Part shown: one piece after another, positions 4,795 through 53,975 of the stretch
How positions within the stretch are numbered: the stretch's first letter is position 1
How the letters are laid out: each line of letters starts with the position of its first letter
DNA from: Methylohalobius crimeensis 10Ki
GTDB taxonomy: Bacteria; Pseudomonadota; Gammaproteobacteria; Methylococcales; Methylothermaceae
DNA: 64,000 bases
Direction of reading: 5' to 3'
NCBI RefSeq assembly: GCF_000421465.1
Contig: NZ_ATXB01000001.1
Coordinates: forward strand, 1,550,001 to 1,614,000
Made by a program: the position numbers and the translations under genes
Notes under the pieces: model-generated
The model's input: only the letters and a program-made list of their open reading frames with translations
Database searches by the model: none
Told to the model about the DNA's origin: nothing

Positions 4795-7700
4795 ATGCGA
4801 ACCCAAATAGAGCGATTGAAAATCCAACTGGATCATTGTCTGAGTCGAGACCGTTACGGTTTGGCCAAACGCCTGGCGCGTCTGGGCGACCGGCCCGAAA
4901 AAGCATCCCTGGAAAAGCTGGCGGTCGCCGTCGAACGTTCGGTGTCCCAGGTGGAGGCCCGGAAGGCCAAAATTCCCGCCCTTGCCTATCCAACCTTGCC
5001 GGTGGCCGAGAAAAAGGACGAAATCGCCCGGGCCTTGCGCGACCATCAGGTGGTCGTGGTCTGCGGCGAGACCGGTTCGGGAAAGACCACCCAGTTGCCC
5101 AAAATCTGTTTGGAGTCCGGGCGCGGCACTCGGGGAATGATCGGTCACACCCAGCCGCGGCGGATCGCCGCCCGCAGCGTCGCCGCCCGGATCGCCGAGG
5201 AACTGGGGCAGCCCCTGGGCGATCTGGTGGGTTATAAAATCCGCTTCCAGGACCAGACCCGGCCCCAAAGCGCGATCAAGCTGATGACCGACGGTATTCT
5301 TCTGGCCGAAACCCAGGCGGACCGTTACCTGACCCAATACGACACCCTCATCATCGACGAGGCTCACGAACGCAGCCTCAACATCGATTTTCTGTTGGGC
5401 TATCTCAAGTGGCTGCTTCCCAGGCGCCCCGATTTGAAGCTCATCATCACCTCCGCCACCATCGACCCCAAGCGCTTTTCCGAGCATTTCGGCGGTGCGC
5501 CCATCGTGGAAGTATCGGGGCGAAGCTTCCCGGTTGAGTTGCGTTACCGCCCGCCGGGAGAAGGAGAAAACGCCGACCAGGACATGATCCAGGCGATTCT
5601 GGAGAGGGTGGACGAACTGGCGCGCGAGAGGCTTTCCGATATCTTGGTGTTCCTCAGCGGCGAACGAGATATTCGCGACACCACCGAAGCGCTGCGCAAA
5701 CATCATCCGGAGCGCTATGAGGTCTTGCCCCTCTATGCCCGCCTGAGCGCCCGCGAGCAGCAGAAGGCGTTTCAGATAGGAGGCCGTCCGCGGATCATCC
5801 TGGCCACCAACGTGGCCGAGACCTCGCTCACCGTCCCCGGCATCCGGGCGGTGATCGATACGGGGATCGCCCGTATCAGCCGCTTTAGTCCGCGCAGCAA
5901 GTTGCAGCGCTTACCGATCGAACCCATTTCCCAGGCCTCGGCCAAGCAGCGCGCCGGACGTTGCGGCCGGGTCGCGCCCGGGGTTTGCATCCGACTTTAT
6001 GCGGAAGAGGATCTCAGCGCCCGCCCGACCTTCACCGACCCGGAGATCCGGCGCACCAATCTGGCTGCGGTGATTCTCCAAATGAAGGCCCTGCGGCTCG
6101 GCGATATCGAGCGTTTTCCCTTCGTCGACATGCCGGACAGTAAGCAGGTCCGCGCCGGCGTCAAATTGCTCCAGGAGCTGCAAGCTTTGGACGCGGCGGG
6201 CCGCTTGACCGAGATCGGCCGCCAATTGATCAAATTCCCCATCGACCCCCGCCTGGGCAGAATGGTTGCGGCGGCCAAAGGCGGAAATTGCCTTACCGAG
6301 ATGGCGGTGATCGCCGCCGGTTTGAGTGTTCAGGATCCCCGGGAACGGCCCGCCGATCAGGCCGATGCCGCCGATGCCAAACACGCCCTGTGGCGCGATG
6401 AAAAATCCGATTTTCTCAGTTTTCTCAAACTTTGGCAGTTGTATACCGAGCAGCAGAAACATCTGTCCAAGACCCAGTTGCGCAAATACTGCAAGGCGCA
6501 TTTCCTTTCTTATCTCCGGATGCGCGAGTGGCAGGATATCCACGCCCAGCTCATGGAGGTGATCAAGGGGGAATTGGGCTGGCGCCCCAATCAGCAACCG
6601 GCAGACTATGCGGAGATTCACCGGGCGATATTGAGCGGTCTGCTGTCGCAGGTGGGGTTTCGCAAGGATAAATTCGAATACGAGGGGGCCCGCGGCCTCA
6701 AATTTTTCATTTTTCCCGGTTCCGGCTTGTTCAAAACCCGCCCCAAGTGGTTGATCAGCGCCGAACAGGTGGAAACCAGCAAGGTTTACGCGCGCATCAA
6801 CGCCCACGTGGAACCCCAGTGGATCGAGCAATGCGCGGACCATCTGGTCAAACGCCATCACTACGATCCTCATTGGGAACGCAAGGGCCGACGGGTGGCC
6901 GCGTTCGAACGGGTGACCTTGTTCGGTCTGACCTTGGTGGAAAGGCGCAAGGTTGCCTACGAGCGGATCAATCCCACCCAGTCGCGGGAAATCTTTATCC
7001 GCTCCGCTCTGGCGGGACAGGATTACGACTGCAAGCTGGCGTTTTTCCGCCATAATCAGGCACTGCTCGAGGAATTCGGGGTATTGCAGCAAAAAGCCCG
7101 GCGCCTGGACCTGATGGTGGACGAGGCTTGGTTGTTCGATTTTTACGATAAACGCGTGCCGGAAGCTATTTGCAATGCCGACGACTTCGAGCGCTGGTAC
7201 CGGCAGATCGTCCGGCGGCAGCCCGACGCCCTCAAGCTGACGCGGGAAATGATCGCCCGAAACTTGCAGGGGATGAAAGTCGCCGATTTTCCCGATTCCT
7301 GGGAAGTGGAGGGAATGGAGCTGGCGCTGCGTTATCAATTCCAGCCGGGAAACGAGGCCGACGGGGTTTCCCTGCAGGTGCCCCTGGCGGTGCTGCCCCA
7401 ATTGGATCAGGCCGCCTTCGATTGGCTGGTGCCGGGCTTTCTCGAAGAAAAACTCATCTTTATTCTCAAGGGTTTGCCGCGAAGCGTGCGGCGCCACTTG
7501 GTACCGATTCCCGACACCGCCGGCCGCGCTTTGACCGAATTGGATTTCGCCCAGGGTCCGTTTTGGCCGGCATTGGCGCGGGCGGTGCTTCGGGTTTCGG
7601 GATTAGAGGTGAGCTCCGACCAGCTCCAGGCGGTGGATTTGCCCGACCATCTGAAAATGAACTTTCAGGTAATCGACGATCGCCGCCGTCTGGTCGCCCA

Positions 7701-8679
7701 GGGGCGGGATTTGGAGAGACTCAAAGCGAAATTGGCGATTTCGGCCCGACAGGGATTCGAACGGTCGGTGGAGGATCGCCCCGAGCTGACCCGCTCGGGC
7801 CTGCGCCGCTGGGAATTCGACGAATTGCCGCGGTCTTGCAAGATGCGTCAAAAAGGCCAGGTGGTGGTGGGATTTCCGGCCTTGGTGGACGAGGGCCAAA
7901 GCTGCGGGGTCCAATTGTTCGCCACCACCGAGGAGGCCCGCGCCGCCCATCGCCGCGGCCTCAATCGCCTGATTCAATTGGTTCTGGCCAAGGATATCAA
8001 GTATCTCAAGAAGCAGTTGCCCTTCAGTACCGCCGACGAATTGGTTTATGCTCGTCTGCCGCGACATTTGTGGTTGTATCAAGATGAAACCGGGCGGCAG
8101 CTTGTGGATGATGTGGCCGATCGGCTGGTGGAGGAGGTTTTTCTGAAAGAAGGCGCGGATGAAATCCGCACCCGCGAGGCGTTCGAGACCTGCTTGGAAA
8201 CCCACCGCAATTCATTGCTTCGGCGCGCGCAGGAAATGGGCGACAGGATTCGGGAAATCCTGCAATTGGTCCAGGAATGCCGGAAGCGTCGCAGCGGGAT
8301 GAAGCATCTGGACCGATCCCCCAGCGGCATCGATATGGACGCTCAGTTGAATTTGCTCTGTTACCGGGGGTTCGTGGGCCATGTGTCCTGGTCCTACTTG
8401 CGTGAATTTCCCCGCTATCTCAAGGCCTTGCAATACCGATTGGACAAGGCGGCGTTTGAATTGGCCAAGGACGAAGCCCGGCTGGCTCGGCTCAGGGATT
8501 TCTGGGAGCCTTATTGGAAACAAGTCGAAACCGGGGATATCCCATCTCCCGATAGCGATCCGTTTCGTTGGAGCCTGGAGGAATTTCGGGTGTCCTTGTT
8601 CGCCCAGCAGATCAAGACCGCCTATCCGATTTCGGAAAAACGCCTGGCCAAGGCGTGGGAGCAATATCGGGCGGCTTAG
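4795..8679 (+). CDS. hrpA: ATP-dependent RNA helicase HrpA (DEAH box)
   Basis: 1294 residues, essentially the length of E. coli HrpA (about 1300). Helicase motifs are intact: Walker A GETGSGKTT at 91-99, DEAH at 188-191, SAT at 220-222 and motif VI QRAGRCGR at about 385-392. The HA2 and OB-type domains follow, and then the long HrpA-specific C-terminal region (DUF3418), which ends in an Arg-rich helical segment. The enzyme unwinds RNA in an NTP-dependent way and has been linked to ribosome rescue and mRNA processing. The ATG at 4795 follows an AGG at short distance. It is monocistronic, with a divergent caspase-like gene upstream and a repeat element 21 bases after the stop. Confidence 0.97.
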   Translation: MRTQIERLKIQLDHCLSRDRYGLAKRLARLGDRPEKASLEKLAVAVERSVSQVEARKAKIPALAYPTLPVAEKKDEIARALRDHQVVVVCGETGSGKTTQLPKICLESGRGTRGMIGHTQPRRIAARSVAARIAEELGQPLGDLVGYKIRFQDQTRPQSAIKLMTDGILLAETQADRYLTQYDTLIIDEAHERSLNIDFLLGYLKWLLPRRPDLKLIITSATIDPKRFSEHFGGAPIVEVSGRSFPVELRYRPPGEGENADQDMIQAILERVDELARERLSDILVFLSGERDIRDTTEALRKHHPERYEVLPLYARLSAREQQKAFQIGGRPRIILATNVAETSLTVPGIRAVIDTGIARISRFSPRSKLQRLPIEPISQASAKQRAGRCGRVAPGVCIRLYAEEDLSARPTFTDPEIRRTNLAAVILQMKALRLGDIERFPFVDMPDSKQVRAGVKLLQELQALDAAGRLTEIGRQLIKFPIDPRLGRMVAAAKGGNCLTEMAVIAAGLSVQDPRERPADQADAADAKHALWRDEKSDFLSFLKLWQLYTEQQKHLSKTQLRKYCKAHFLSYLRMREWQDIHAQLMEVIKGELGWRPNQQPADYAEIHRAILSGLLSQVGFRKDKFEYEGARGLKFFIFPGSGLFKTRPKWLISAEQVETSKVYARINAHVEPQWIEQCADHLVKRHHYDPHWERKGRRVAAFERVTLFGLTLVERRKVAYERINPTQSREIFIRSALAGQDYDCKLAFFRHNQALLEEFGVLQQKARRLDLMVDEAWLFDFYDKRVPEAICNADDFERWYRQIVRRQPDALKLTREMIARNLQGMKVADFPDSWEVEGMELALRYQFQPGNEADGVSLQVPLAVLPQLDQAAFDWLVPGFLEEKLIFILKGLPRSVRRHLVPIPDTAGRALTELDFAQGPFWPALARAVLRVSGLEVSSDQLQAVDLPDHLKMNFQVIDDRRRLVAQGRDLERLKAKLAISARQGFERSVEDRPELTRSGLRRWEFDELPRSCKMRQKGQVVVGFPALVDEGQSCGVQLFATTEEARAAHRRGLNRLIQLVLAKDIKYLKKQLPFSTADELVYARLPRHLWLYQDETGRQLVDDVADRLVEEVFLKEGADEIRTREAFETCLETHRNSLLRRAQEMGDRIREILQLVQECRKRRSGMKHLDRSPSGIDMDAQLNLLCYRGFVGHVSWSYLREFPRYLKALQYRLDKAAFELAKDEARLARLRDFWEPYWKQVETGDIPSPDSDPFRWSLEEFRVSLFAQQIKTAYPISEKRLAKAWEQYRAA

Positions 8680-8700
8680 AGGGGCGCGCCGGGTAGCGGC

Positions 8701-8777
8701 GGCTTGCCGGACACGCCGTAGACCCTTCCCTGGGGGCTCGATGGTGCCAGTCCGGGGCGCCAACGGTCCGGCAAGCC
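8701..8777. repeat. Dispersed inverted-repeat element, copy A
   Basis: 12-base perfect arms GGCTTGCCGGAC (8701-8712) and GTCCGGCAAGCC (8766-8777) enclose a 26-base core (8714-8739) that begins CGCCGT and ends CCCTGGGGGCTC. The same core occurs inverted at 15500-15525 and directly at 63551-63576, in each case inside a pair of inverted arms. The arms themselves differ between copies. It is probably a non-autonomous, REP/MITE-like element, and it lies just after the hrpA stop. Confidence 0.75.
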
Positions 8778-8835
8778 TCTCGTTGTTCTTGGGGTGTTGA
8801 TCCCTGATACCGTGGATTTTATTGACATGACGGTT

Positions 8836-8862
8836 GTAGGGGCGATCCTTGTGATCGCCTAC
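8836..8862. repeat. Short palindromic repeat
   Basis: An imperfect palindrome built on GTAGGGGCGATC (8836-8847) and GATCGCCTAC (8853-8862). Palindromes of this GTAGGGGCG-type are scattered in many bacterial genomes as REP-like sequences. No second copy was noticed in this window. Confidence 0.5.
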
Positions 8863-8880
8863 CATTTCTTTAGGGATGCT

Positions 8881-8910
8881 TTGGAAGCGACCTGATCTAC
8901 TTCGTATAGT
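8881..8910 (+). promoter_or_regulatory. Candidate sigma70 promoter of purT
   Basis: TTGGAA (8881-8886), an 18-base spacer and TATAGT (8905-8910) lie 42 bases before the purT start. A small hairpin CTACT/AGTAG overlaps the spacer and the -10 element. Confidence 0.45.
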
Positions 8911-8951
8911 AGTGTTTCAGTCAATGGCAACTCAAAGTAAAGGAGTCGTTT

Positions 8952-10160
8952 ATGCAAATCGGAACCGCTCTGACGGCCAGCGCCACCAAGGTGATGTTGC
9001 TGGGGGCAGGAGAATTGGGCAAGGAGGTGGCGATCTGCCTGCAGCGCTACGGGATCGAAGTGATTGCGGTGGATCGGTACGAAAACGCCCCGGCCCACCA
9101 CGTCGCACAAGTTCGGCATGTGATCGACATGACCGACGGGGTTCAGCTTCGAGCGCTGGTGGAGCGGGAACAACCGGATTGGATCGTGCCGGAAATCGAG
9201 GCTTTGGCCACCGACACTTTACTGGAAATCGAAAGAGACGGTCTGGCACAGGTGGTTCCCTCCGCCCAAGCGGTGCAGCTGACCATGGACCGGGAAGGGA
9301 TCCGGCGCTTGGCGGCCGAAACGTTGGGATTGCCCACTTCCGGCTATGGGTTTGCCGGCTCCCTGGAAGCGTTGATCGAGACGGCCGAGAAAGTGGGTTA
9401 TCCCTGTTTCGTCAAACCCACCATGTCCTCCTCGGGAAAGGGGCAATCCCAAGTCCATGGGCGGGAGGAACTGGCTGCGGCGTGGGAGAAAGCGCGTGCC
9501 GGCGGCCGCGTGGACCGGAAGCGAGTGATCGTGGAGTCGAAAGTGGATTTCGATTTCGAGATTACCTTGCTCACGGTGCGCGCCTTGAATCTTCAAGGAC
9601 AAACCGAAACTTATTTTTGCCAACCCGTCGGCCACCGCCAGGAGAACGGCGATTACGTGGAAAGCTGGCAACCCCAAGCGATGACGCCCAAAGCCTTGGT
9701 CGAAGCCCAGCGCATTGCGGCGGCGGTGGTGGAGTCTTTGGGTGGACGAGGGTTGTTCGGGGTGGAACTGTTTGTGCGCGGGGACCGGGTTTGGTTCAGC
9801 GAAGTCAGTCCCCGCCCCCATGACACCGGCATGGTGACCATGGCCGGTCAGGGACAGAGCGAATTCGAACTGCATGTGCGGGCCTTGCTGGGCTTGCCGG
9901 TGGATACCCGTCTGTTGCGTCCTGCGGCGAGCGCGGTGATTTATGGCGGAATGGAAGGCAGCGGTCTTATTTATGAGGGCATAGAAGCGGCTTTGGCCGT
10001 TCCCGAAAGCCGGTTGCGTCTATTTTCCAAGCCGCTCGCGTTCCACCGCCGCCGGATGGGGGTGGCGCTGGCCGAAGGGAAAGACGTGGAAGAAGCCCGA
10101 GTCCGAGCCCGAGCTTGCGCGGCCAAGGTGCAACCAAAGTCACACTCCGCAATGCCTTGA
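8952..10160 (+). CDS. purT: Formate-dependent phosphoribosylglycinamide formyltransferase PurT
   Basis: 402 residues (E. coli 392). This ATP-grasp enzyme makes formyl-GAR from GAR, formate and ATP in purine synthesis, by-passing 10-formyl-tetrahydrofolate. The N-terminal domain carries [14 protein letters not shown] (about 14-27) and [14 protein letters not shown] (about 82-95). The ATP-grasp part holds [16 protein letters not shown] near 152-167 and the metal-binding [13 protein letters not shown] near 287-299. A strong Shine-Dalgarno (AAAGGAG, 8939-8945) fixes the ATG. Using formate directly fits a C1 metabolism in which formate is abundant. Confidence 0.97.
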
Positions 10161-10209
10161 GTGAACTAGACTTGAATGGTCACTGAACGAACTTATTGAA
10201 TGAGAGGTC

Positions 10210-10776
10210 ATGGCGCGGCATCGGAGTTTGTGGTTGGGAATCGTTTTGGTTGCCATGCCGGCAGCGGCGGATATTTACAAATATGTGGATGCGAATGGCC
10301 AAGTGTATTACGCCGATGAACGCAAGCACGCCGGCTATCGGTTGATCATTCGCACCCCTGGACCCAGGCGGTCCGGGGGCCAATGGACTTTGCGGCGAGC
10401 CAAATATACGCCCATGGTGGAAAAAGTGGCGAAAAAGTACCGCCTCGACCCACAGTTGTTGCACGCCGTGATTCGTGCCGAATCGGCCTATAATCCTCAA
10501 GCGATCTCTCCCAAGGGAGCGGTGGGGTTGATGCAACTGATGCCGGAAACCGCCGCCCGGTACGGTATCCAGGATCGTTACGACCCCCTCAAAAACATCG
10601 AAGCCGGGGCTCATTATTTGCGCGATTTGTTGGCGGACTTCAAGGATGTCAAACTGGCGGTGGCGGCTTATAATGCCGGGGAGGCGGCGGTGCACAAATA
10701 CGGCAACCGAGTACCTCCTTACCTGGAAACCCGCCAATACGTTGCCCGGGTCCTGAAATTTTACGGTGACTCATGA
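10210..10776 (+). CDS. Secreted lytic transglycosylase with DUF4124 and SLT domains
   Basis: 188 residues. A signal peptide of about 20 residues is followed by a short DUF4124-type segment (DIYKYVDANGQVYYAD, 21-36). A goose-lysozyme-like SLT domain spans about 65-185. The catalytic glutamate is Glu91 in RAESAYNP, followed by the hallmark GAVGLMQLMPETA (103-115) and AAYNAGEAAV. It cleaves the glycan strand of peptidoglycan to 1,6-anhydro products in the periplasm. Its stop overlaps the start of the HDOD gene by four bases (ATGA), so the two are translationally coupled. Confidence 0.92.
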   Translation: MARHRSLWLGIVLVAMPAAADIYKYVDANGQVYYADERKHAGYRLIIRTPGPRRSGGQWTLRRAKYTPMVEKVAKKYRLDPQLLHAVIRAESAYNPQAISPKGAVGLMQLMPETAARYGIQDRYDPLKNIEAGAHYLRDLLADFKDVKLAVAAYNAGEAAVHKYGNRVPPYLETRQYVARVLKFYGDS

Positions 10777-11630
10777 GCAAATATAGCTCTCCCGCCCAAC
10801 TTTTGGAAAGCGAACGGGATTTGGTTTCCCTGCCCGATGTGGTTTTCCAACTGCAAGCATCTATCGGCGATCCTCGCAGCACAGCCGACAGCGTCGGTGC
10901 CGTCATCTCCCGCGATCCCGCGTTGACCGCCCGCTTGTTAAAGCTGGCCAACAGCCCTATTTATGGCTTTGGGGGGCGCATCGACACCGTTTCCCGGGCA
11001 GTGTCCCTAGTCGGTATGGAGCCGCTGTACAATCTGGCATTGGCCACCTGCGCGGTGGGTGCTTTCCGGAATATTCCCGTTCAACTGATCGACATGGAGG
11101 AATTCTGGCTGCAGAATGTCTATTGCGCGGTGGTTGCCCGCCTGCTCGCCAGGGAAGCCAAGGTTTTGCACCCGGAGCGTCTATTCGTGGCCGGTCTGTT
11201 GCGTTCCATCGGCTCTTTGGCGATTTATATGAAATGTTCGGACGAGGCCCGGGAGATTCTCCTGGCGAGCCAGGGGAAGCGCGCCTTGGTGCCGATGCTG
11301 GAAAAGGACCTGCTCGGGTTTACCTACGCCGAGGTGGGGGCGGAGCTAGCCCGGATGTGGCGTATGCCTCGGTGGCTGCAAGAGGCGATCGGTTGTCACC
11401 TTTTTCCCGAATCCGCCTCCGACTATGTCTTCGAGGCCGCTTTGATTCACCTGGCGGATCGGTTGACCGACGTGTTGATGGAGGGAGATGCGGTGGAAGA
11501 CGTTTTGGCGGAATTGCCAGAAGAAGATATTCTTGATTTGTTGGGCGTAAGCGAGCAGCAGATACTTGAACTGATGACCCAAGTTTATTACGAATTCACC
11601 GAAGTTGCCCACTCGTTGTTGTCGGTCTGA
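10773..11630 (+). CDS. HDOD domain protein
   Basis: 285 residues with an HDOD domain (degenerate HD-type regulatory fold) over about 15-210: LPDVVFQLQ, DPALTARLLKLANSPIYG, and a SRAVSLVGMEPLYNL helix. The metal ligands of true HD phosphohydrolases are not evident, as is normal for HDOD. Such proteins work in signalling, often beside chemotaxis and c-di-GMP proteins. A second protein of the same kind and length is encoded at 32562-33443. It lies between the transglycosylase (four-base overlap) and the protease gene (two-base gap) in one operon. Confidence 0.88.
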   Translation: MSKYSSPAQLLESERDLVSLPDVVFQLQASIGDPRSTADSVGAVISRDPALTARLLKLANSPIYGFGGRIDTVSRAVSLVGMEPLYNLALATCAVGAFRNIPVQLIDMEEFWLQNVYCAVVARLLAREAKVLHPERLFVAGLLRSIGSLAIYMKCSDEAREILLASQGKRALVPMLEKDLLGFTYAEVGAELARMWRMPRWLQEAIGCHLFPESASDYVFEAALIHLADRLTDVLMEGDAVEDVLAELPEEDILDLLGVSEQQILELMTQVYYEFTEVAHSLLSV

Positions 11631-11632
11631 AA

Positions 11633-12412
11633 ATGGCAACTTATAGAGGGATACGGCTATTCCTTCTCGGGGCTTTTTGGCTTGCCGGCATGGGAAGCGC
11701 TGTCGCGGCTTTGCCCGAGACGGTGGCGCGGATCAAGTCGAGTATACTGGCTGTCGGTACCTATCAACGTACCCGAACGCCTTCGGCGGTGTTTCGTGGC
11801 ACTGGCTTCGTGGTCGGCGACGGCCGTCATGTTTTGACCAACGCCCATGTTTTGCCGGAAACCGTCGACCGGGAGCATTCCGAGGTTTTGGCGGTGTTTT
11901 TCAAATTCCATGGCAAGGATCGATTACGAGGAGCGAAAGTCGTGGACATGGATAAGACCTACGACATAGCGGTACTGAAAATCGCCGGCGATCCTCTGCC
12001 CGCCCTATCCCTCGGCGATTCCGACACAGTGCGGGAGGGAGAGAACTATGCCTTTACCGGTTATCCCATCGGCATGGTATTGGGGCTGTATCCGGTGACC
12101 CACCGCGGGATCGTTGCCAGCATTACCCCCATTGCGATTCCCGCTCTCCGCGCCGGTCAATTGAACCCCAAGCTGCTGCGCCGTCTCCACCGACCCTATC
12201 GAGTGTTTCAATTGGATGCCACCGCCTATCCCGGCAATAGCGGCAGCCCCTTGTATGATCCGAAGTCGGGGAAGGTGATTGGAATCATCAATAAGGTATT
12301 CGTCAAGGAAAGCAAGGAGAATCTCCTTGCCAAGCCTAGTGGGATCAGTTATGCGGTACCGATCGAATATGCGAAGCAATTGCTTCGGGAAAGCGGTGTC
12401 CTGGGACACTGA
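11633..12412 (+). CDS. Exported trypsin-like serine protease (S1 family)
   Basis: 259 residues with an N-terminal signal or membrane segment (about 8-26) and then a chymotrypsin-fold domain. The triad is visible: His72 in TNAHV, Asp111 in DIAVLKI and Ser203 in YPGNSGSPL. No PDZ domain follows, unlike DegP/DegS, so this is a stand-alone periplasmic protease of the S1C kind. The start is two bases after the HDOD stop. The substrate is unknown; the operon suggests an envelope maintenance role with the transglycosylase. Confidence 0.88.
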   Translation: MATYRGIRLFLLGAFWLAGMGSAVAALPETVARIKSSILAVGTYQRTRTPSAVFRGTGFVVGDGRHVLTNAHVLPETVDREHSEVLAVFFKFHGKDRLRGAKVVDMDKTYDIAVLKIAGDPLPALSLGDSDTVREGENYAFTGYPIGMVLGLYPVTHRGIVASITPIAIPALRAGQLNPKLLRRLHRPYRVFQLDATAYPGNSGSPLYDPKSGKVIGIINKVFVKESKENLLAKPSGISYAVPIEYAKQLLRESGVLGH

Positions 12413-12494
12413 GTTGTCAGAAAATTTTACATCTCCGGGGCTGTGATTATATAACCAACTGAATTTAAGAGAATTAATTCGTTTGGTGTGGAAA

Positions 12495-12523
12495 TTGCCT
12501 TAGTTTGTGAAGGGTGGTTTATT
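12495..12523 (+). promoter_or_regulatory. Candidate promoter of the HPr-rel-A locus
   Basis: TTGCCT (12495-12500), a 17-base spacer and TTTATT (12518-12523) lie in a 139-base AT-rich gap. Both boxes match the consensus at four of six positions, so this is only a candidate. Confidence 0.35.
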
Positions 12524-12551
12524 CATTACAGGTGTCCATGAGGAAATAACA

Positions 12552-13127
12552 ATGGATGAAAACGAACACAAATCAGTGGGAGAAGTCGGTCGTGATAAAT
12601 CTGGACCGGAAGTTTCCCGAACGAGGCGACGTTTGGTCAAATCGGCGGTGGCGGCCGCGCCGGTGGTGTTGACCTTGCGGAGCGGAGCGGCACTGGCCAA
12701 TGCCAGCGCGTATCAATGTATCGAAAAGAATCAGAATGAGCCGACGCCGGATGTTTTGTTGGGGCCTGAGGAAGAGGCGGATATGTGGGTTCGAGAGTCG
12801 GTGCAGTGCCGTCAGTTGCAACAACAAGGAAGTGACGATTCATTTTGGGTTTATGAAGATCGCAATTCTTCAGGCCAGTGGATAGAGGAAACGGATGATT
12901 TAATCGAACCTAGAATTTTTGAAGATCAAGGAGGTTCGGGAAAGATGCGTAATGCCAAGGACGAAAGCGACAATAATTATGACGTAATAAGTGAGAGAAC
13001 TTGCGAAATTTTGGTACTGTTCGATGCGGAGGGGAATCGGGTGGGAATCGGTCAACCCGAAGCCGATGCCATGCCCATCACCGGTTCCTGTTGGGCCTCG
13101 ATCGATCCCGCCTGGGCGGATATGTAA
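12552..13127 (+). CDS. Tat-type signal protein of unknown function, first gene of HPr-rel-A locus
   Basis: 191 residues from the ATG at 12552, which follows AGGAAATAAC; an in-frame ATG at 12507 lacks a ribosome site. The N-terminus has an Arg-rich TRRRLVKS motif (24-31), a hydrophobic stretch (about 32-42) and a likely cleavage after Ala49 (AALA), as in twin-arginine signal peptides. The mature part is acidic and has exactly four cysteines (56, 86, 151, 180), which could form two disulfides. It ends in GSCWASIDPAWADM. I recognise no catalytic domain. It leads a unit with PqqD-like, HprK-like and nucleotidyltransferase genes, so it may be their substrate; that is inference from position only. 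Confidence 0.7.
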   Translation: MDENEHKSVGEVGRDKSGPEVSRTRRRLVKSAVAAAPVVLTLRSGAALANASAYQCIEKNQNEPTPDVLLGPEEEADMWVRESVQCRQLQQQGSDDSFWVYEDRNSSGQWIEETDDLIEPRIFEDQGGSGKMRNAKDESDNNYDVISERTCEILVLFDAEGNRVGIGQPEADAMPITGSCWASIDPAWADM

Positions 13128-13138
13128 AGTAAATCGGA

Positions 13139-13432
13139 TTGGCTGTGGATGTCTACTCCTGTTGGCGAGTGCCTCGAGAAGTGGAATTACTCTGGGAAAA
13201 ATGGCCCAAGGATGCGCTTGTTTTCAACACCCTGTCGGGAGAGACCCATCATTTGAACGATACCGCCGCCACGGCTTTGGAGGAACTCGAACGGGCGCCT
13301 CAGTCGACGAAAACATTGATGGAAACACTGGCAGAAAAATTCGAATTTGATGATGTCGAAGGATTTGTGCATCAAATTCAGCAACTGTTGGAAGAGTTCG
13401 ACCGTTTGGGATTGATCGAGCCGAGCGCGTGA
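13139..13432 (+). CDS. PqqD-like protein of the HPr-rel-A system
   Basis: A small protein (97 residues from TTG 13139; GTG 13145 is an equally possible start, and no clear ribosome site decides). The body ALVFNTLSGETHHLNDTAATALEEL is the winged-helix PqqD pattern, in which a beta hairpin reads 'NPLSGETHxLN'. The C-terminal helix runs to LDRLGLIEP. PqqD domains bind the leader of a precursor peptide and present it to a modifying enzyme. Its stop overlaps the next gene's GTG start by four bases, so its output is tied to the kinase. Confidence 0.8.
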   Translation: MAVDVYSCWRVPREVELLWEKWPKDALVFNTLSGETHHLNDTAATALEELERAPQSTKTLMETLAEKFEFDDVEGFVHQIQQLLEEFDRLGLIEPSA

Positions 13433-14337
13433 AAGTCGCCGACTTGGGACAGCCCGAGCTGGCTCAGTGTTTGCTCAACCCGCAAGGGATTGTGCTGAAA
13501 AGCGGCCCTTTCAGTGTCCGGATACGATCGAGCGTCGGTTGTTTTGCCCCTTTTTTGCATCGTATGTATGCGAATTTTTCCTTATTGGCCGGCGATGCCC
13601 TGGCCGATTTTAGAATTCAATTGCGGCGGCCGGGCACGATTCGCTATTTTTTTCGCCCCCAAGTTTATTTCAAGCACGACGGACGCAGGCTGTTTGAGCC
13701 CTTTCCGCTCAACTTGGCGCCCCCTCTCTTCGAATGGGGGTTGAATTGGTGTATCGCTACCCGCGCCCATCAATATTTGATGCTCCATGCAGCGGTGTTG
13801 GAACGGGAGGGTCGCGCGGTGGTCATGCCGGCTCTGCCCGGAGCCGGCAAAAGTACCTTGTGCGCGGCCTTGATGTTGAATGGCTGGCGATTGTTGTCGG
13901 ACGAATTCGGTTTGCTCCGCGCCGACGGTGCCTTGGATCCCCTCCCGCGCCCGATTCCGCTGAAAAACCAATCGATCGAGGTCATCCGGACATTCGCTCC
14001 GGACGCGGTGCTGGGTCCCTTGTTTCCGAAAACCCGCAAGGGAACCGTTGCCCATTTGCAGCCGACTTCCGTCAGCGTGGAAAAGATCGCGGAATCGGCG
14101 ATTCCCGCCTGGATCGTGTTTCCCCGTTTTCGTAAAGATGCGTCGGCATCGCTCAAACCGGTGGTGCCTTCCTATGCGGTCCTCAAATTGGCGACCAACG
14201 CGTTCAATTATGAAATCTTGGGCGCGGAAGGTTTTCGCCGCGTGGGGCGTTTGGTCGGAAATTGTCGTCTTTACAATTTCACCTATGGACGCCTGGAGGA
14301 TGCGATGAACGTTTTCGACTCCCTCCCGGTTCCATGA
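13429..14337 (+). CDS. HprK-related kinase A
   Basis: 302 residues from a GTG that overlaps the preceding stop. The C-terminal half resembles the HPr kinase/phosphorylase core: a Walker A PALPGAGKST at 134-143, an acidic LLSDEF at 155-160 where HprK has its catalytic Asp region, and a downstream PLKNQSIE strand. The N-terminal 110 residues differ from HprK. HPr kinases phosphorylate a serine on HPr; related kinases in lasso-peptide clusters phosphorylate the peptide, and the target here is unknown. A four-base overlap (ATGA) couples it to the nucleotidyltransferase gene. Confidence 0.82.
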   Translation: MKVADLGQPELAQCLLNPQGIVLKSGPFSVRIRSSVGCFAPFLHRMYANFSLLAGDALADFRIQLRRPGTIRYFFRPQVYFKHDGRRLFEPFPLNLAPPLFEWGLNWCIATRAHQYLMLHAAVLEREGRAVVMPALPGAGKSTLCAALMLNGWRLLSDEFGLLRADGALDPLPRPIPLKNQSIEVIRTFAPDAVLGPLFPKTRKGTVAHLQPTSVSVEKIAESAIPAWIVFPRFRKDASASLKPVVPSYAVLKLATNAFNYEILGAEGFRRVGRLVGNCRLYNFTYGRLEDAMNVFDSLPVP

Positions 14338-15389
14338 GCGATCCCCGACTATTGACCAAGGTTTGGCGGGAGCCGGCGATTGTGCGGGAATTTGACAATC
14401 CGGACTGGGAGGCGTTGCTCGTGCTTGCCGGTCGAGCCAGGTTGATCGCTACTATTAGTTACCGGATCGAACGTTGCGGTCTGCGCGAAGCGGTGCCGGA
14501 CAAAGTCTGGAACCACTTTCAAGCCGGTCGCGTCTTCGCCGATTTCCGCAACCGCCGGATCCGCTGGGAAATGAACCGCTTGCAACGCGTTCTACGGCAA
14601 GTGGATTGCGAAGTCATCGCTTTGAAAGGAGGGGCCTATTTACTTCTGGATTTGCCCCTGGCGAAAGGGCGCCTGCCGGCGGATTTGGATGTGTTAGTCC
14701 GCCGGGAGCACTTGTCTATCTTGGAAGACTTGCTCTTGAACGAAGGATGGCAAGACGTCAAATTGAACGACTATGACCAGCGCTATTACCGGGAATGGAT
14801 GCATGAAATTCCACCGCTACGCCATCCGCAGCGCGGGGTGGAAGTGGACGTCCACCATGCCTTGCTTCCTCTGACGGCCAGATTGCACGCCGATAACGAA
14901 CTTTTGTGGGCGTCGGCGCGGAACGTCGAGGCTAGCCGGTTTAAGGTGCTGGCACCCGAAGATATGATCCTCCACGCGGTGGTCCATCTGTTTTACGATT
15001 CGGATTTCGACAACCGCTTGCGGGATCTTATCGACATCGATGAAATGCTGCGGTTTTTTAGCGCCCGGGAAGGGAATTTCTGGGAAAGTCTGATTCGGCG
15101 GGCCGAGGTTCATGGTTTGGAGAAGCCGTTAACCTATGCGCTTCATAACGCTAGCCGGATTCTGGGGACTCCCGTGCCGTCCAATTTGTCTTTGCAGGCA
15201 GTCAAGCCATGGTCGGTGCAAGGAATGGGCTTTCTCGTCGGTCGGGCGTTGTTGCCGGAGGATCCCGAAAGTTTTAACGGGATTGACGCGATGGTCCGGT
15301 GGCTGTTGTATGTGCGATCTCACTATCTACGTATGCCGCTCAGACTGCTCCTGCCGCATTTGTTGTATAAGGCGGTAAAGCCATCTTGA
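14334..15389 (+). CDS. Nucleotidyltransferase family protein (NTP_transf_5 type) of the HPr-rel-A system
   Basis: 351 residues from the ATG at 14334 (overlapping the kinase stop); the longer frame to 14262 lies inside the kinase gene. It shows the nucleotidyltransferase pattern of this family: LKGGAYL at 97-103, then PADLDVLV at 115-122 and EVDVHHAL at 170-177, giving the three acidic positions expected for metal binding. A helical C-terminal part follows, with HAVVHLFYDSDFDNRLRDLIDI near 215-240. The acceptor is not known. With the kinase and the PqqD-like gene it makes the three-gene HPr-rel-A cassette. Confidence 0.8.
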   Translation: MSDPRLLTKVWREPAIVREFDNPDWEALLVLAGRARLIATISYRIERCGLREAVPDKVWNHFQAGRVFADFRNRRIRWEMNRLQRVLRQVDCEVIALKGGAYLLLDLPLAKGRLPADLDVLVRREHLSILEDLLLNEGWQDVKLNDYDQRYYREWMHEIPPLRHPQRGVEVDVHHALLPLTARLHADNELLWASARNVEASRFKVLAPEDMILHAVVHLFYDSDFDNRLRDLIDIDEMLRFFSAREGNFWESLIRRAEVHGLEKPLTYALHNASRILGTPVPSNLSLQAVKPWSVQGMGFLVGRALLPEDPESFNGIDAMVRWLLYVRSHYLRMPLRLLLPHLLYKAVKPS

Positions 15390-15423
15390 ACGACAGCTTC
15401 CTGTTCGAGACAGCTCCGATCCT

Positions 15424-15587
15424 AGAGGCTGTTTACAAAGTTGATCCGAACTGATCTGAAGAAGGGTCCGGCGGCTTGACCGGAGGGCGTTCGCGATTCG
15501 AGCCCCCAGGGACGGGATCACGGCGTCCCGGAGGTCAAGCCTCCGGGACCCTGCCCCAGTTTGAGATAAGCTTTACAAACAGTCTCT
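15424..15587. mobile_element. MITE-like element containing dispersed repeat copy B
   Basis: The 164-base unit has imperfect terminal inverted repeats: AGAGGCTGTTTACAAAG (15424-15440) and CTTTACAAACAGTCTCT (15571-15587), 14 of 17 paired. Inside are smaller arms GGCTTGACC (15473-15481) and GGTCAAGCC (15533-15541) around the 26-base core in inverse orientation (15500-15525). It has no coding capacity and no clear target duplication. The right end of the element at 63 kb has the same GTAAACAGCCTCT terminus. It fills most of the gap before the chemoreceptor gene's 3' end. Confidence 0.7.
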
Positions 15588-15598
15588 ACGAATGCCCT

Positions 15599-17473
15599 CT
15601 AGGGGCTTCCCGCCTTGAAGTTCGTGAGCAGGGATTCCAACTCCTCGGAGAGTCGGCCCAGGGCAAGGCTTGTATCGGCCGTATTGTTGGCGCTGACCAC
15701 GGTATCTTCGCCAACTTTGGTAATACGGCTGAGGCCTGAGTTGATACTTCCGGCTGTTTGGGATTGCTCCTCGACAGCACTGGCGATTTGCTCGCTCATC
15801 TCCCGGATGCGGTTTATCGCCTCGACGATGGTGTCGAAGGTTGAACCGACTCGTGTGGCATGTTCCACATTCCCTTGCACCAGGGTTTGGCTGTTTTGCA
15901 TTGCCTCCACGGAGGCGCGGCTCTCGCTCTGTAGTCGTTCGATGAGCGTTTGTATTTCTTCGATGGACAGCTTCGTTCGACCGGCAAGTCCCCGTACTTC
16001 CTCGGCCACCACCGCGAATCCCCGTCCTCTCTCACCGGCCCGTGCGGCCTCGATAGCGGCGTTTAATGCCAGAAGATTGGTCTGTTCGGAGATGTTGTGA
16101 ATGACTTCGAGGACGGCGCCGATATCGTCGCTCGCACGGTGGACCGAATCGATCACCGCCGATGTCTTTTGCATTTCTCCGGCTAAGTCAGAGATGGCGC
16201 TCTGGCTTTCTTTCACGACGCCGCGTCCCGTTTCCGCTTGGCTATAGGCTTCGGCGGCCGCTTCATTGGTGGAAACCACCAGACGTGCGATTTCCTCGGA
16301 AGCTTCCGTCATGCCTTCGACGGAATGGGCTAAAAGCGTGGTTTCTTCCTGTTGTAGTCCGGTGCGTTCGCGGGTTTCCTCGGCAATGTCAGAGACCCGT
16401 TGAGTTTGATCGGCCAATGATTTTGACGTGGATTGTATCCGATTGAGCACGGTGCGCAGTTGACCAAGCATTTGCACCAAGGCCCGTTCTAGAATGCCAA
16501 TCTCGCCCCGGTGATGGACGCTTGCTTCGATCTCCAAATCACCTTCGGCCACGGCCATCAGTTCCCCTGCCAGGGCCTGCAAGGGGCGTAGGGAAAACTG
16601 TAAATACCAATGCAACCAAACTCCGGCGGCCAGAACGACGGCGGCGACCAGGATCAGGGTAATGGATCGTAATTTCAGTTGTTCCCCGACGGTTTCGGTT
16701 TCATCCGTGGCGCTGACCAGATGGGCGATCGGTCGGTCGGAATAATCAGTCACGGGGATGGTCGTCACCACTTGAGTGGCGGCTTCTTGCTGCACGATTT
16801 CGGTACCGATTTCACCGAGAGCGGGAAGTTCGATGTCGATATCGGACAAGGGGACGTTGGAAGTGGCATAGAAAGTGCTCCCGGAAGAATCCGCGACGTA
16901 GAGAACGGATTCGTCTTCTTCCACGAAGGCTTGCAGCGCATGCTCCAAAGGAGTGGCTAAAATGCCGAACCCGATGAGCCTGCGTCCCAACCCCAAGGGG
17001 AAGACCGCCACCGCTACAGGTCGTCCTCTGGTATCGGCGGCGATGCCGGTGGTGATACGGTTCTCCCTTTCCACATGTTTTAGAAGTTCGAAACCGTTCG
17101 GATCTATGGTTGGGGTGGGAAGTGCCAAGAGCGTGGCGTTGCTGTTAGAGTCGATGATCTGCAGGCCACTGAAGCGGTCGGAACCTAACAGATCCAATGT
17201 ATTTCTCGCCTGACTTCGCAATGTTGCGATATCACCGTCGCGCAGTGCGGCCCGCAGACCGTAATTGCTTTGCAAGTCCGCGGCCGATTGTTTGAGCGAT
17301 TCCATGACGCTTTGGGCCGCACGTCGCCAGAGGAGACTTTTTCCTTTAGCCAAAGCCGCAGAGTAACGTTCCATCATCTGGTGTTCGAACAACACTCCGG
17401 CACTGACGATCGTGCCGGCGATTACGACCATCATTATCAAGGTCGCCAAGGATAGTCGTAAGCGCAGTGTCAT
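15599..17473 (-). CDS. Methyl-accepting chemotaxis protein
   Basis: 624 residues. The first membrane helix is at about 7-29, followed by a periplasmic sensor region of some 240 residues that looks like a double-CACHE type ([35 protein letters not shown]). The second helix is at about 270-290, then a HAMP segment ([23 protein letters not shown]) and the MA signalling domain to the C-terminus. The hairpin tip is intact ([18 protein letters not shown]). There is no CheR/CheB tethering pentapeptide at the C-terminus (ends FKAGSP). The ligand is unknown. No chemotaxis operon is in the window, so this is an orphan receptor gene. Confidence 0.93.
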
Positions 17474-17680
17474 TTTATGGATCCCTTGGGCTTTCCAGTT
17501 TCCATCCGTATCTCCTTATTGAACTCAGTGTGTAGGCCCATCCAACCAAGTGTGTTTTCGACCCTCCGGAAAGCATCGGTGGCGCGACCAATATAGTTGG
17601 CCTATGTTGCAATAATATTAAGGCGTCGGGAGGCAATTCGTTCGACTAAATGGAAAGACAGGATGCGGATGGTGAGGTGA

Positions 17681-18502
17681 TTAGGTGTAAGGCTGTCGGG
17701 GGGTTAGCCGGAAAGGATAGGTGGCGAATCTTGATCCATTCTCGAGCAGAGCCGCTTTGCCGCGCTCGGTGAGATCGGTGACGAAGCGAAATTGTAGTCG
17801 CGGGTCGATGGGATAGGCTTTGAGGCGGTAGTGGGTACCCCAAGGCTTTTCGTGGGCAATGACCAAGATCGGTCGATCGAAGCTTAGGAAGGCGCTGGTC
17901 AACGCCACATCGTGGAGTAGATTTCTGACCCGCGTGCCGTCGTGGTCGGGGTGAAGGTAAAAATCGGCGATGCATTGCAGGTATCGGCTGCCGTCGTTGG
18001 CGTTATGGATCAAGTGGTTCCAAGCCATCAGATGCGGAATGAAAACCGCGGTGTCGTCCGGCGTTAGAATTTTGATTGTCCGCATTCCGATCTCTTTTAC
18101 CTCCCCGTAAACACCGTTCACTTCGATCCAGTCGCCGGGACGATACGGTGTTTCACCCAGGGTGACCACGCCGGCGGTCAAGCTGCTGATATAGTCTTTG
18201 ACTGCGAACCCCAAAGCCAAGGCGAAGGCAACGAATACCGACAACAGATTTTCAATGGTTGGTTCAACCAGGCGAAAAAGAATCAGAATGAAGGCCGTGA
18301 CGACGATCACCAATCGCAAGATTGGTACCATTGCCAGCAACCCGTATCGCGCATAGGTGGGTACCCGGTCGGCGATCAGGGGGACGAGGCGTTGCGCCAG
18401 AAGGATCAGCAACCATGCGCCAAGCAGGATGAGACCGATTTGGATAAAAGCGATCTCGCCGACGTTTCTGAGGTGATCGTTGATTTTGTCTATGGCGTCC
18501 AT
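17681..18502 (-). CDS. MscS-family mechanosensitive channel
   Basis: 273 residues with three membrane helices (about 15-37, 58-82 and the pore helix near 85-115). The MscS beta domain follows (TLGETPYRPGDWIEVNGVYGEVKEIGMRTIKI), and then the alpha/beta C-terminal part. The length fits small-conductance MscS (E. coli 286). It releases solutes from the cytoplasm upon hypo-osmotic shock. It is the last gene of a minus-strand run that starts with the DUF6513 gene, nine bases after the unknown 410-residue gene. Confidence 0.88.
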   Translation of the reverse strand: MDAIDKINDHLRNVGEIAFIQIGLILLGAWLLILLAQRLVPLIADRVPTYARYGLLAMVPILRLVIVVTAFILILFRLVEPTIENLLSVFVAFALALGFAVKDYISSLTAGVVTLGETPYRPGDWIEVNGVYGEVKEIGMRTIKILTPDDTAVFIPHLMAWNHLIHNANDGSRYLQCIADFYLHPDHDGTRVRNLLHDVALTSAFLSFDRPILVIAHEKPWGTHYRLKAYPIDPRLQFRFVTDLTERGKAALLENGSRFATYPFRLTPRQPYT

Positions 18503-18511
18503 GGAAAATGA

Positions 18512-19744
18512 TCAAAAAGCGTCTGTTAAATAGCCGGAAGCTTGCATGAAATTACGAACCGCCGGATAGCCGCGGGATGAGACCCGCCATACATCGTCTT
18601 TTTGTTCCAGCAAGCTCCGAGACTCCAACAGCGTCAAAATGCCCGTCAATCGATGGAACGGGAAGGGAAGCAGCCGACTCAACCAGTGCTCGGATAACCC
18701 GTTGTGGAGAAGGAGGCTATGTAAGACCCAGCCTTCCTCCCATCCGGCGGACTCCGGAATACCGGGGTGTCTGAATTGATCCCAAGCGGCCACCCAAATC
18801 GTGTTTGCCCGAGTGGAGGAATCCCCTGCATCGAGCTCTCTTTTTTCAGCTTCCGGCTGCTCGGGCTCGGAGCGCAGGCCGGCACGCCAGTAGGCCCGGG
18901 CCACGCCGAGGTTGCCGCGGCTATATGCCGCCAGATGTAGAAAAAAATCGTTGGGTTCGGCCGGTTCATCCGAAGATTCGGTCGGCGATAATAGGTGCTC
19001 CCCGTTATCCGCTTTGCGAAATCGTTTCGGAGCCCCATCGGAAATTTGAGCCTGGTGTTGGAAATAATTGGCCAGAGAACCGCCGTCCAGCGCTTGCAGG
19101 GTCATCACCGGAGGCAAGGGCGTTTCCCAGACGTGTCGCAGGAACGCCCACGCCCAGCTGTCGCAACCGATTAGCCCGTGTCCGAGACGGCCGGATAGGG
19201 CTTGAGCAAAAAAATCCCGAACCAAGTCCAGCCCGTCCACGTGTCGCAGGTAAAGCCGTTCCAGGGCGGGTAGAACCCAGATGCTTCGAGTTGTTTCCTC
19301 TTCGGCGGTCCAGGATGAATGACCGGTGACGATGGCATCGGGGGGGGGAGGGTGCAGGATGGGCAGGTCCCGTTCCTTCGCCCAGTCGGTTAGAATCTGA
19401 GGGTGGCCGTTATGGGGAGGCAGTACCAGGAACAGCACCGGTTGCTCCGGCGGCTGGCGCGCTTTCCAGTCGGCGAGGGTTCGATCTAACGTTCGGGCCG
19501 CTTCTTCCCAGGCCGGTTCGGGTATGATCCGGGCAAGTTGGCTTTCGCTCAGGGATTTGAGATCCTCCATGGGTTTTAAGTAGGACTCGGATTCCGGCGG
19601 GCGAAACTTTCGCCAGAGGGCGGTCAATCCAGTATGGGCGGTTTGGGTGACTTTCGGTGCCGGTGCTTGGAAATCCTCGCCGGAAACGAAACGCCAAAAG
19701 GAATTCGATTGCTCGGGGAGCTGCCGGGGGGAGGGGGCCGACAT
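18512..19744 (-). CDS. Uncharacterised protein between pyrD and mscS
   Basis: 410 residues, soluble, no signal peptide. The N-terminus is Pro/Ser-rich (SAPSPRQLPEQSN, FRPPESES). A central alpha/beta part (about 95-235) has strands such as VLFLVLPPHNGHP and GHGLIGCDSWAWAFLRHVW, reminiscent of an ATPase fold but without a Walker A. The C-terminus (about 330-410) looks like a winged helix (RLTGILTLLESRSLLEQKDDVWRVSSRG). I do not recognise the family. Gaps of three bases to pyrD and nine to mscS place it firmly in the operon, and it may assist the channel. Confidence 0.6.
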   Translation of the reverse strand: MSAPSPRQLPEQSNSFWRFVSGEDFQAPAPKVTQTAHTGLTALWRKFRPPESESYLKPMEDLKSLSESQLARIIPEPAWEEAARTLDRTLADWKARQPPEQPVLFLVLPPHNGHPQILTDWAKERDLPILHPPPPDAIVTGHSSWTAEEETTRSIWVLPALERLYLRHVDGLDLVRDFFAQALSGRLGHGLIGCDSWAWAFLRHVWETPLPPVMTLQALDGGSLANYFQHQAQISDGAPKRFRKADNGEHLLSPTESSDEPAEPNDFFLHLAAYSRGNLGVARAYWRAGLRSEPEQPEAEKRELDAGDSSTRANTIWVAAWDQFRHPGIPESAGWEEGWVLHSLLLHNGLSEHWLSRLLPFPFHRLTGILTLLESRSLLEQKDDVWRVSSRGYPAVRNFMQASGYLTDAF

Positions 19745-19747
19745 GAT

Positions 19748-20797
19748 TTAAGGCTCTCCGGTAGGGTGCATTTGCCGCTTTTTCAACCGATCTAGGGTCA
19801 GGTCGATTAAACCGGAACCATGGTATATCAATCCGGTGTAAAGTTGCACCAAGCGGGCGCCGGCTTCGAATTTCGCGATCGCATCTTCGGGGGTCAGGAT
19901 TCCGCCGCAGGCGATGATGGGCAGCCGGTTTCCCAACCGATTATGCAGTCGGCGGACCACCGAGGTCGATTGATCGAATACCGGCCGTCCACTCAATCCC
20001 CCGGTTTCCAAGCCGTGCGGCAGATTTTGGACGGCGCTGTGATCCAAGGTGGTATTGGTGGCAATGACCGCATCCATGTGGTGGCGTAGAAAAGTTTGGG
20101 CTTGTTCCTCCAGTTGTGCCGGAGATAGATCGGGGGCGATCTTGACCGCGATCGGGAGCCGCCGGCCGTGGGTTTGGGCCAAGGATTCCCGCGTTTCATC
20201 CAGACGGGAAAGCAGGGAATCGAGGGCTTTACCGTGTTGCAGGTCTCTCAGCCCGGGGGTGTTGGGGGAGGAAATGTTGAGGGTGACATAATCGGCAAGC
20301 GGGTAAACCTTTTCCAGGCCGACGAGGTAGTCTTCCACGGCCTTTTCTTGCGGCGTGTCCTTGTTTTTGCCCAGGTTGACACCGAGGATATAGCCTCGCT
20401 TGCCGAGTCGCTCCAAATTGCCGGCGAGATGAGCCAAGCCTTTGTTGTTGAAGCCCATACGGTTGATCAAGGCCTCGGCTTCGGGAAGGCGGAACAGCCG
20501 CGGTTTGGAATTGCCGGGCTGGGGACGAGGGGTAACGGTGCCCACTTCGATAAACCCGAATCCCAGCCCGGCCAATCCTTCGATATGGTCGCCGTTTTTA
20601 TCCAGCCCGGCCGCCAATCCCACCGGATTGGGGAAACGCAGCCCCATCACTTCGGTTTCCAGTTTTGGTAAATGCTTTTTAAAGGGATTGAAAGGACCCA
20701 GTTTAACGGTCAGATCCAGGGCGGCGAGCGTCCACCGGTGAGCGGTTTCCGGGTCGAGTCGAAATAACAAGGGACGGAGCAAAGCGTAGCTATCCAT
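19748..20797 (-). CDS. pyrD: Dihydroorotate dehydrogenase (quinone), class 2
   Basis: 349 residues with the N-terminal membrane-associating helices typical of class 2 enzymes (ALLRPLLFRLDPETAHRWTL). The FMN barrel includes GLAAGLDKNGD (60-70), RMGFNNKG (113-120) and NISSPNTPGLRDLQ (174-187) with the catalytic serine. It oxidises dihydroorotate to orotate and passes electrons to ubiquinone. It is eight bases downstream of mfnB and in the same operon, an unusual partnership. Confidence 0.96.
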   Translation of the reverse strand: MDSYALLRPLLFRLDPETAHRWTLAALDLTVKLGPFNPFKKHLPKLETEVMGLRFPNPVGLAAGLDKNGDHIEGLAGLGFGFIEVGTVTPRPQPGNSKPRLFRLPEAEALINRMGFNNKGLAHLAGNLERLGKRGYILGVNLGKNKDTPQEKAVEDYLVGLEKVYPLADYVTLNISSPNTPGLRDLQHGKALDSLLSRLDETRESLAQTHGRRLPIAVKIAPDLSPAQLEEQAQTFLRHHMDAVIATNTTLDHSAVQNLPHGLETGGLSGRPVFDQSTSVVRRLHNRLGNRLPIIACGGILTPEDAIAKFEAGARLVQLYTGLIYHGSGLIDLTLDRLKKRQMHPTGEP

Positions 20798-53961: not shown

Positions 53962-53975
53962 TCGCGGAGGCGGTT

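Follow-up and report, generated by a model that had tools for sequence, protein, structure and literature searches.

What do the orphan enzymes of the HPr-rel-A system act on? The question is raised by four genes of Methylohalobius crimeensis 10Ki, a gammaproteobacterium with a genome of 3.5 Mb, which lie in the 64,000-nucleotide stretch analysed here (the window; contig NZ_ATXB01000001.1, positions 1,550,001 to 1,614,000). An earlier, sequence-only reading had described four coupled genes for an exported 191-residue protein, a PqqD-like protein, an HprK-like kinase and a nucleotidyltransferase, and we reproduced its coordinates and overlaps: 11 bases separate genes 1 and 2, and 4-base overlaps join the last three. 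All four genes are real and intact. Since the cassette recurs at more than 100 distinct loci, chance is no concern for it. On balance we lean towards a leader-guided cytoplasmic system, similar to those of ribosomally synthesized and post-translationally modified peptides (RiPPs), that modifies one dedicated protein exported by twin-arginine translocation (Tat). The cassette consists of:

12552-13127, + strand: Tat-leader protein of class A (see below), 191 residues, four Cys; the proposed dedicated substrate
13139-13432, + strand: PqqD-like protein of the RiPP recognition element (RRE) type, TTG start, presumed leader-binding (TIGR04353, PF05402, hhalign)
13429-14337, + strand: HprK-related kinase A (TIGR04352; hhalign to lasso kinase)
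14334-15389, + strand: NTP_transf_5 nucleotidyltransferase (PF14907; hhalign to lasso nucleotidyltransferase)

Linkage of the Tat-leader protein and the enzyme trio

Kinase loci were collected from relatives (24 of 61 genomes over the cut-off), from a class sample (27 of 274) and from contigs of named genomes (the best 80 of 252). Removal of duplicates left 122 loci, each with a kinase above 300 bits. A hidden Markov model (HMM) grown from the window protein detected a Tat-leader protein just upstream on the same strand at 112 of the 122, and reading by eye added five more (117/122). Because the HMM was iterated on the same set of open reading frames (ORFs), it is position and strand, and not the E-value alone, that carry the linkage. 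Among the loci missed by the HMM, three end at a contig edge (L006, L053, L109), two retain the body of the protein with the leader cut off by the contig edge (L071, L093), two have a divergent twin-arginine protein by eye (L039, L103) and one has a short one by eye (L133).

In the class sample, a leader match at E<=1e-5 was obtained in 29 of 274 genomes and a kinase over the cut-off in 27, with 25 shared (Fisher p 4e-29, uncorrected for phylogeny); several leaders of this sample went into the leader profile, which is hence not independent of it. Leader scoring covered at most the best 24 first-look candidates per genome here and the best 22 in the phylum sample described below. All 29 leader-positive genomes hold an HprK-like kinase. 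The four beyond the shared 25 have a weaker one, on the same contig as the leader in three; in G096 it lies on another contig, as part of a full cassette of that contig's own whose Tat peptide has 90 aa. The best leader match lies upstream of an HprK-like kinase, on the same strand and within 3 kb, in 28 of the 29. Two kinase genomes gave no leader match: G167, with a divergent Tat protein by eye, and G317, where the locus meets a contig edge.

The phylum sample gave the same picture: 36 of 299 genomes have a leader match, every one of them among the 51 kinase genomes (p 8e-35, uncorrected for relatedness). Counted by genus in E-value-limited searches, the leader occurs in 21 and the kinase in 28 of 154. 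Thirty of the 36 lie outside the window's taxonomic class, and since the rows of the leader profile (built from 69 leaders) belong by title mainly to Gamma- and Betaproteobacteria, these 30 are almost certainly not represented in it. The six in-class genomes include the window genome, and others of them may coincide with named rows of the profile. Of 15 kinase genomes that gave no leader match, 13 (G167 and 12 others) proved on inspection to have a Tat protein upstream; of the remaining two, G508 ends at a contig edge and G532 has no Tat protein, so that the total is 49 of 51. The leader match is on a contig other than the kinase's in G403, G391, G586, G444 and G349, and G504 has such a match plus an adjacent Tat gene. 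In G391 and G586 the Tat gene stands beside the PqqD gene and the kinase and nucleotidyltransferase genes are on a different contig, all being present. A plasmid search with the nucleotidyltransferase returned 10 records, of which four were inspected; two of these (from Sphingomonas parapaucimobilis and Vibrio alfacsensis) have an annotated kinase A, and the 'hypothetical protein' encoded upstream of it shows a twin arginine and a leader of the usual shape.

The sequence-only reading had held that its substrate idea would fall if the trio mostly lacked such an upstream protein, or if the Tat protein were widespread without the trio. Neither is the case: the upstream protein is present at the large majority of loci, and every genome with a leader match at E<=1e-5 also has an HprK-like kinase (29/29 and 36/36). 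The linkage could also be explained by operon hitch-hiking, with the Tat protein as neutral cargo of a regulatory HprK-like kinase; both are vertically inherited and the samples are phylogenetically dependent. However, the linkage persists across the classes of the phylum and in the split-gene genomes, and this co-occurrence largely refutes hitch-hiking, which we regard as highly improbable. As far as gene context can speak for function, a substrate role of the Tat protein is strongly supported by the linkage.

Some loci depart from the usual layout. A Methylobacter locus (L122:3387-3950 and 5092-5679) encodes two different Tat-leader proteins beside one kinase, and in a mussel methanotrophic symbiont (L065:4814-5044 and 5178-5714) Tat leader and body are separate ORFs, possibly a broken gene. 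A second DNA match of the window locus within its own genome (L002) was rejected as chance; other genes are present there.

The three enzymes and their lasso-peptide counterparts

The enzymes themselves are known already as lasso-tailoring enzymes, and kinase and PqqD-like protein are named in NCBIfam as the HPr-rel-A system. The window proteins exceed both of its cut-offs (kinase, HprK_rel_A TIGR04352, 382.9 bits against 200; PqqD-like protein, PqqD_rel_X TIGR04353, 61.7 against 35). The PqqD-like protein also matches Pfam PqqD (PF05402, 25.8 bits, cut-off 23.4) and the nucleotidyltransferase matches NTP_transf_5 (PF14907, 183.2 bits, cut-off 31.2). The HPr-rel-A names say nothing of a substrate; for the Tat protein there is no model, and the Sphingomonas and Vibrio plasmid records list it as 'hypothetical'. 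No paper naming the system was found in the open literature, most subscription journals being outside the scope. The two closest named kinases come from Methylothermaceae metagenome-assembled genomes (67 and 65% identity to the window kinase).

Both enzymes retain their presumed active sites, at the following positions:

13786-13788, + strand: H120 of the kinase, invariant in 121 kinases
13837-13857, + strand: Walker A motif of the kinase, P137-T143 (alignment of 121 kinases)
14682-14690, + strand: D117-x-D119 of the nucleotidyltransferase, from its acidic triad
14847-14849, + strand: D172 of the nucleotidyltransferase, the third acidic residue

The intact Walker A motif and acidic triad that had been read from the window alone are borne out by the alignments. 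In the 121 aligned kinases H120, G138, G140, K141, T143, R154, D158 and E159 are each invariant; in the nucleotidyltransferases K98, G99, D117 and D172 are invariant (116/116) and D119 is kept in 115 of 116. The Walker A motif, H120, D158 and E159 are common to the window kinase and HPr kinase/phosphorylase. We take H120 to occupy the position of the catalytic His of HPr kinase, and the Walker A and His/Asp residues presumably play the same catalytic roles. The window kinase differs from HPr kinase/phosphorylase in matching no Pfam family (0 at E<=1), and a sequence search of solved structures returned no relative for the kinase, the nucleotidyltransferase or the class B proteins described below.

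No characterised pathway was thought to have this gene set. This needs correction, since lasso clusters of the paeninodin/pseudomycoidin type hold the same three enzymes and NCBIfam names kinase and PqqD-like protein as a system. The lasso kinase (K), PqqD-like protein (B1) and nucleotidyltransferase (N) are all homologous to the window trio: hhalign of window-type profiles against a lasso-type cluster on a plasmid of Paenibacillus cellulosilyticus gave 95.8 for the kinase, 95.8 for the nucleotidyltransferase and 90.7 for PqqD, versus 0.4 for a mismatched negative control. That cluster encodes a PF14907 nucleotidyltransferase, an Asn synthase, an HprK-like kinase, a PqqD-like protein, a B2-like ORF and a precursor-like ORF of 64 aa whose last residue is Ser; all but the nucleotidyltransferase and the Asn synthase were first identified by eye. 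According to a review (PMC8498205), the lasso HPr-kinase homologues phosphorylate the C-terminal Ser, and the nucleotidyltransferase of pseudomycoidin decorates the phosphate in vivo with one or two hexoses. Unlike the lasso precursors, the proposed substrate in the window has a Tat leader, a body some 140 residues long and no terminal Ser. Among the ORFs of window positions 8000-20000, neither a lasso cyclase nor a B2 protease was recognised by eye, and no profile search for them was made. On a Deinococcus plasmid (L222:4824-6164), NTP_transf_5 is fused to a transglutaminase-like (lasso B2) domain, annotated as lasso B2, with a PqqD-family gene nearby.

Because the trio is homologous to the lasso K/B1/N trio, the cassette is best explained as the same three-enzyme module with a Tat-leader protein for its target. 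Firstly, the PqqD-like protein would recognise the first gene's product in the cytoplasm by binding its conserved N-terminal Tat leader. Secondly, the HprK-like kinase would phosphorylate a Ser (or Thr) of the Tat protein; in class A the best candidate acceptors would be the two Ser of SCWxS, the invariant C-terminal motif. Next, like its lasso counterpart, the NTP_transf_5 enzyme would put a sugar or nucleotide onto the phosphate. Lastly, the finished protein would leave by Tat, which would be the natural exit if the modification is made in the cytoplasm and plausibly has to precede export, and would take up an external role, in many species alongside exosortase-A polysaccharide. By analogy with lasso tailoring, the chemistry would be phosphorylation, and probably glycosylation or nucleotidylation, of the Tat protein. 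The earlier proposal that the first product is the modified substrate is partly supported: upstream linkage and co-occurrence of leader and kinase bear it out, and we infer the phosphorylation or nucleotidylation. If this is correct, orphan HPr-rel-A enzymes gain a concrete, testable substrate, the tailoring module of lasso peptides is extended to large exported proteins, and Tat is suggested as a way out of the cell for proteins and peptides that carry chemical modifications. The enzymes, leader and C-terminal motif are few enough for a joint test in one expression host.

A signal that doubles as leader has a parallel in bufferin-type RiPPs (HvfABC), whose precursors keep their export signal in this double role. 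Bufferins use Sec instead of Tat and different enzymes, and the HvfC model matches the window PqqD-like protein at just E 0.0026, far below the HvfC cut-off. DUF2063-associated RREs are reported to be paired with DUF2282 precursors (PMC12710340).

Leader and mature region of the Tat protein

Three features of the 191-residue protein are relevant to a substrate role:

12624-12698, + strand: conserved leader with twin arginine R25-R26, K30 and PVVLTLRSGAALA to A49 (from sequence and leader alignment)
12717-12719, + strand: first Cys, C56, invariant in class A
13086-13100, + strand: C-terminal S-C-W-A-S, candidate acceptor site; S179, C180 and S183 invariant in class A

The twin-arginine-like signal noted earlier is present, as R25-R26 followed by a hydrophobic stretch, and the genome encodes TatC (231 bits), which together are features of Tat substrates. 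Nearly all leaders consist of RRx(F/L)xK, then residues of the type P-V-x-L-T-L-x-S and then the first Cys, 25-34 residues from the RR in 112 of 118 proteins. R26, K30, P37, A47 and A49 are invariant across the 16 class A proteins over which invariance was counted. In the window genome the leader profile has a single match (65.9 bits; the runner-up scores 15.7). The arrangement of an RRE/PqqD-type domain adjoining a precursor with a conserved leader is that of RiPP systems. Searches of Pfam and NCBIfam assign the first gene to no family, no match having an E-value below 0.11. Curated Tat models matched one of 52 class B proteins in each library, and none of the 16 class A proteins in NCBIfam.

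Behind the leader the proteins diverge. Judged from their sequences, the constant part is the leader and the mature regions form unrelated classes: of the 120 upstream proteins (114 HMM matches and six hand-picked, with two loci giving two ORFs each), 18 including the window's belong to class A, 86 to class B and 16 to neither, and the profiles of class A and of mature class B do not match each other (0.04% probability). Substrate class tracks the kinase tree, with 7 changes versus at least 25 in 500 shuffles.

The sequence-only reading had characterised the Tat protein by four Cys and a GSCWAS-like end. Four Cys as a defining feature was rejected, as class A keeps only the first and last Cys; the C-terminus does recur outside the window's taxonomic class, and is rare in class B. 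The GSCWAS-like motif is found in 18/18 class A proteins, 4/86 of class B and 5/16 of the others. C-x-x-S occurs within the last 25 residues in 33 of 38 further Tat proteins, mostly as (S/T)CWxS(F/L/I), against a shuffled mean of 3.8 and a shuffled maximum of 11; the phylum sample supplied 37 of the 38 and a plasmid the other, and as the proteins are interrelated they are not independent events. These 33 are exactly the proteins from outside the window's taxonomic class, and the five misses are four genomes of that class and the Vibrio plasmid. In its place, class B proteins share an SPGYWK motif and, close to the start, invariant Ser residues. A single acceptor motif of the S-A/G-N/Q type for all substrates was rejected, being enriched in class B and overall and not in the proteins of neither class.

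Predicted structures gave no matches. The model of the window Tat protein (mean pLDDT 63.9, residues 78-167 beta-rich) has no match in the PDB at E<=0.001, the best hits starting at E 0.05 with low TM-scores and being noise. A class B model (L106:5081-5650, with SPGYWK) is confident at residues 80-190 and likewise has no PDB match (best E 3.6). The mature domain of class B is not confined to leader-bearing proteins, as 5 of its 25 class-sample matches are in ORFs without a leader match there (G075 C37, G140, G144, G159, G274).

Divergent kinases, polysaccharide loci and the weight of the evidence

Short Tat-leader peptides, many of 56-90 residues, adjoin divergent HprK-like kinases, for example peptides of 57 and 59 aa on either side of the kinase (L178) or a 90-aa peptide encoded between PqqD and kinase (L182). 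These bear on another explanation, in which the trio is a dedicated chaperone or proofreading set that times Tat export by reversible phosphorylation or nucleotidylation. Signal-binding chaperones for Tat substrates exist, and the conserved leader, the Tat route and the tight gene spacing and overlaps agree with such a role, but peptides of 56-90 residues would hardly need folding control and the lasso counterparts are tailoring enzymes. We consider timing of export distinctly unlikely. Two divergent loci (L192, L193) combine PqqD-kinase fusions and a nucleotidyltransferase with an upstream short Tat peptide bearing a FAVYTPPA motif.

A further explanation is that the trio modifies something else, such as a polysaccharide precursor or small molecule, and that the Tat protein is a secreted partner using or carrying the product. 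Exosortase XrtA exceeds the cut-off in 51 of the 274 genomes of the class sample, 22 of them among the 27 kinase genomes and 29 among the 247 others (p 4e-14, uncorrected for phylogeny), and neighbour clusters of XrtA/PEP-CTERM polysaccharide families, assigned by cluster representatives, occur at 32 of the 73 loci with flanks up to 6 kb. These associations favour another acceptor. On the other hand, the PqqD-like protein points to peptide recognition, the conservation sits in the leader and not in the mature part, kinase genomes G112 and G117 have no XrtA match, and the XrtA locus of the window is about 38 kb from the cassette and not adjacent. Another acceptor seems unlikely to us. Involvement in the extracellular matrix can be taken as a lead and not as a result. 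It is possible, though we doubt it, that the cassettes represent a large, so far unrecognised class of leader-guided ribosomal products with the Tat signal as leader, comprising proteobacterial proteins and short peptides that the HprK/PqqD/NTP_transf_5 set would phosphorylate and cap with a sugar or nucleotide in the cytoplasm and that would be exported by Tat, in many species together with exosortase-A polysaccharide, for which they would perhaps serve as covalent anchor or primer.

Several observations weigh against a modified Tat substrate. No modification of the Tat protein has been observed so far, and linkage alone cannot tell a substrate from a partner. L009 and L063 (2 of the 122 loci) and G532 (one of the 51 kinase genomes) have no adjacent Tat protein, and the window leader matches no Pfam or NCBIfam Tat signal model. 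Lasso kinases act on a terminal Ser, whereas eight residues follow S183, the last conserved Ser, in the window protein. Because the C-terminal CxxS is missing from most class B proteins (4/86 have the motif), no single acceptor explains all substrates. Three loci (L188, L189, L190) have a nucleotidyltransferase, a PqqD-like protein and a divergent HprK-like kinase with no Tat gene seen. In two same-genus genomes (L184, L185; two of ten further stretches), PqqD, a weak HprK-like kinase and a nucleotidyltransferase occur without a leader match, and the gene that precedes PqqD is for another secreted protein, about 270-280 aa long. Among 34 divergent-kinase loci chosen around weaker kinase matches, a Tat-leader peptide was found (E<=0.1) in just seven (L192, L193, L195, L198, L203, L211, L219), using models into which six short leaders had been copied; the other 27 showed none, and many of their kinases are weak or generic. 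Because of these 7/34 loci and of L184 and L185, the link between short peptides and divergent kinases is suggestive only.

The gene directly 5' of the Tat gene was considered as a fifth member of the system:

11633-12412, + strand: secreted trypsin/HtrA-like protease; possible accessory, weak link

It was rejected as a member, as relatives occur at only 20 of the 122 loci (18 of the 20 upstream); the protease scores below every curated cut-off. At L009, a relative of it occupies the place expected for the Tat protein.

The exosortase-A polysaccharide locus of the window (also L183) begins at about 53,332, and a family search places XrtA from about 63,955 onward. Three of its genes were recognised by eye:

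53332-53961: export-like protein
53835-55532: chain-length-like protein
60615-61463: deacetylase-like protein

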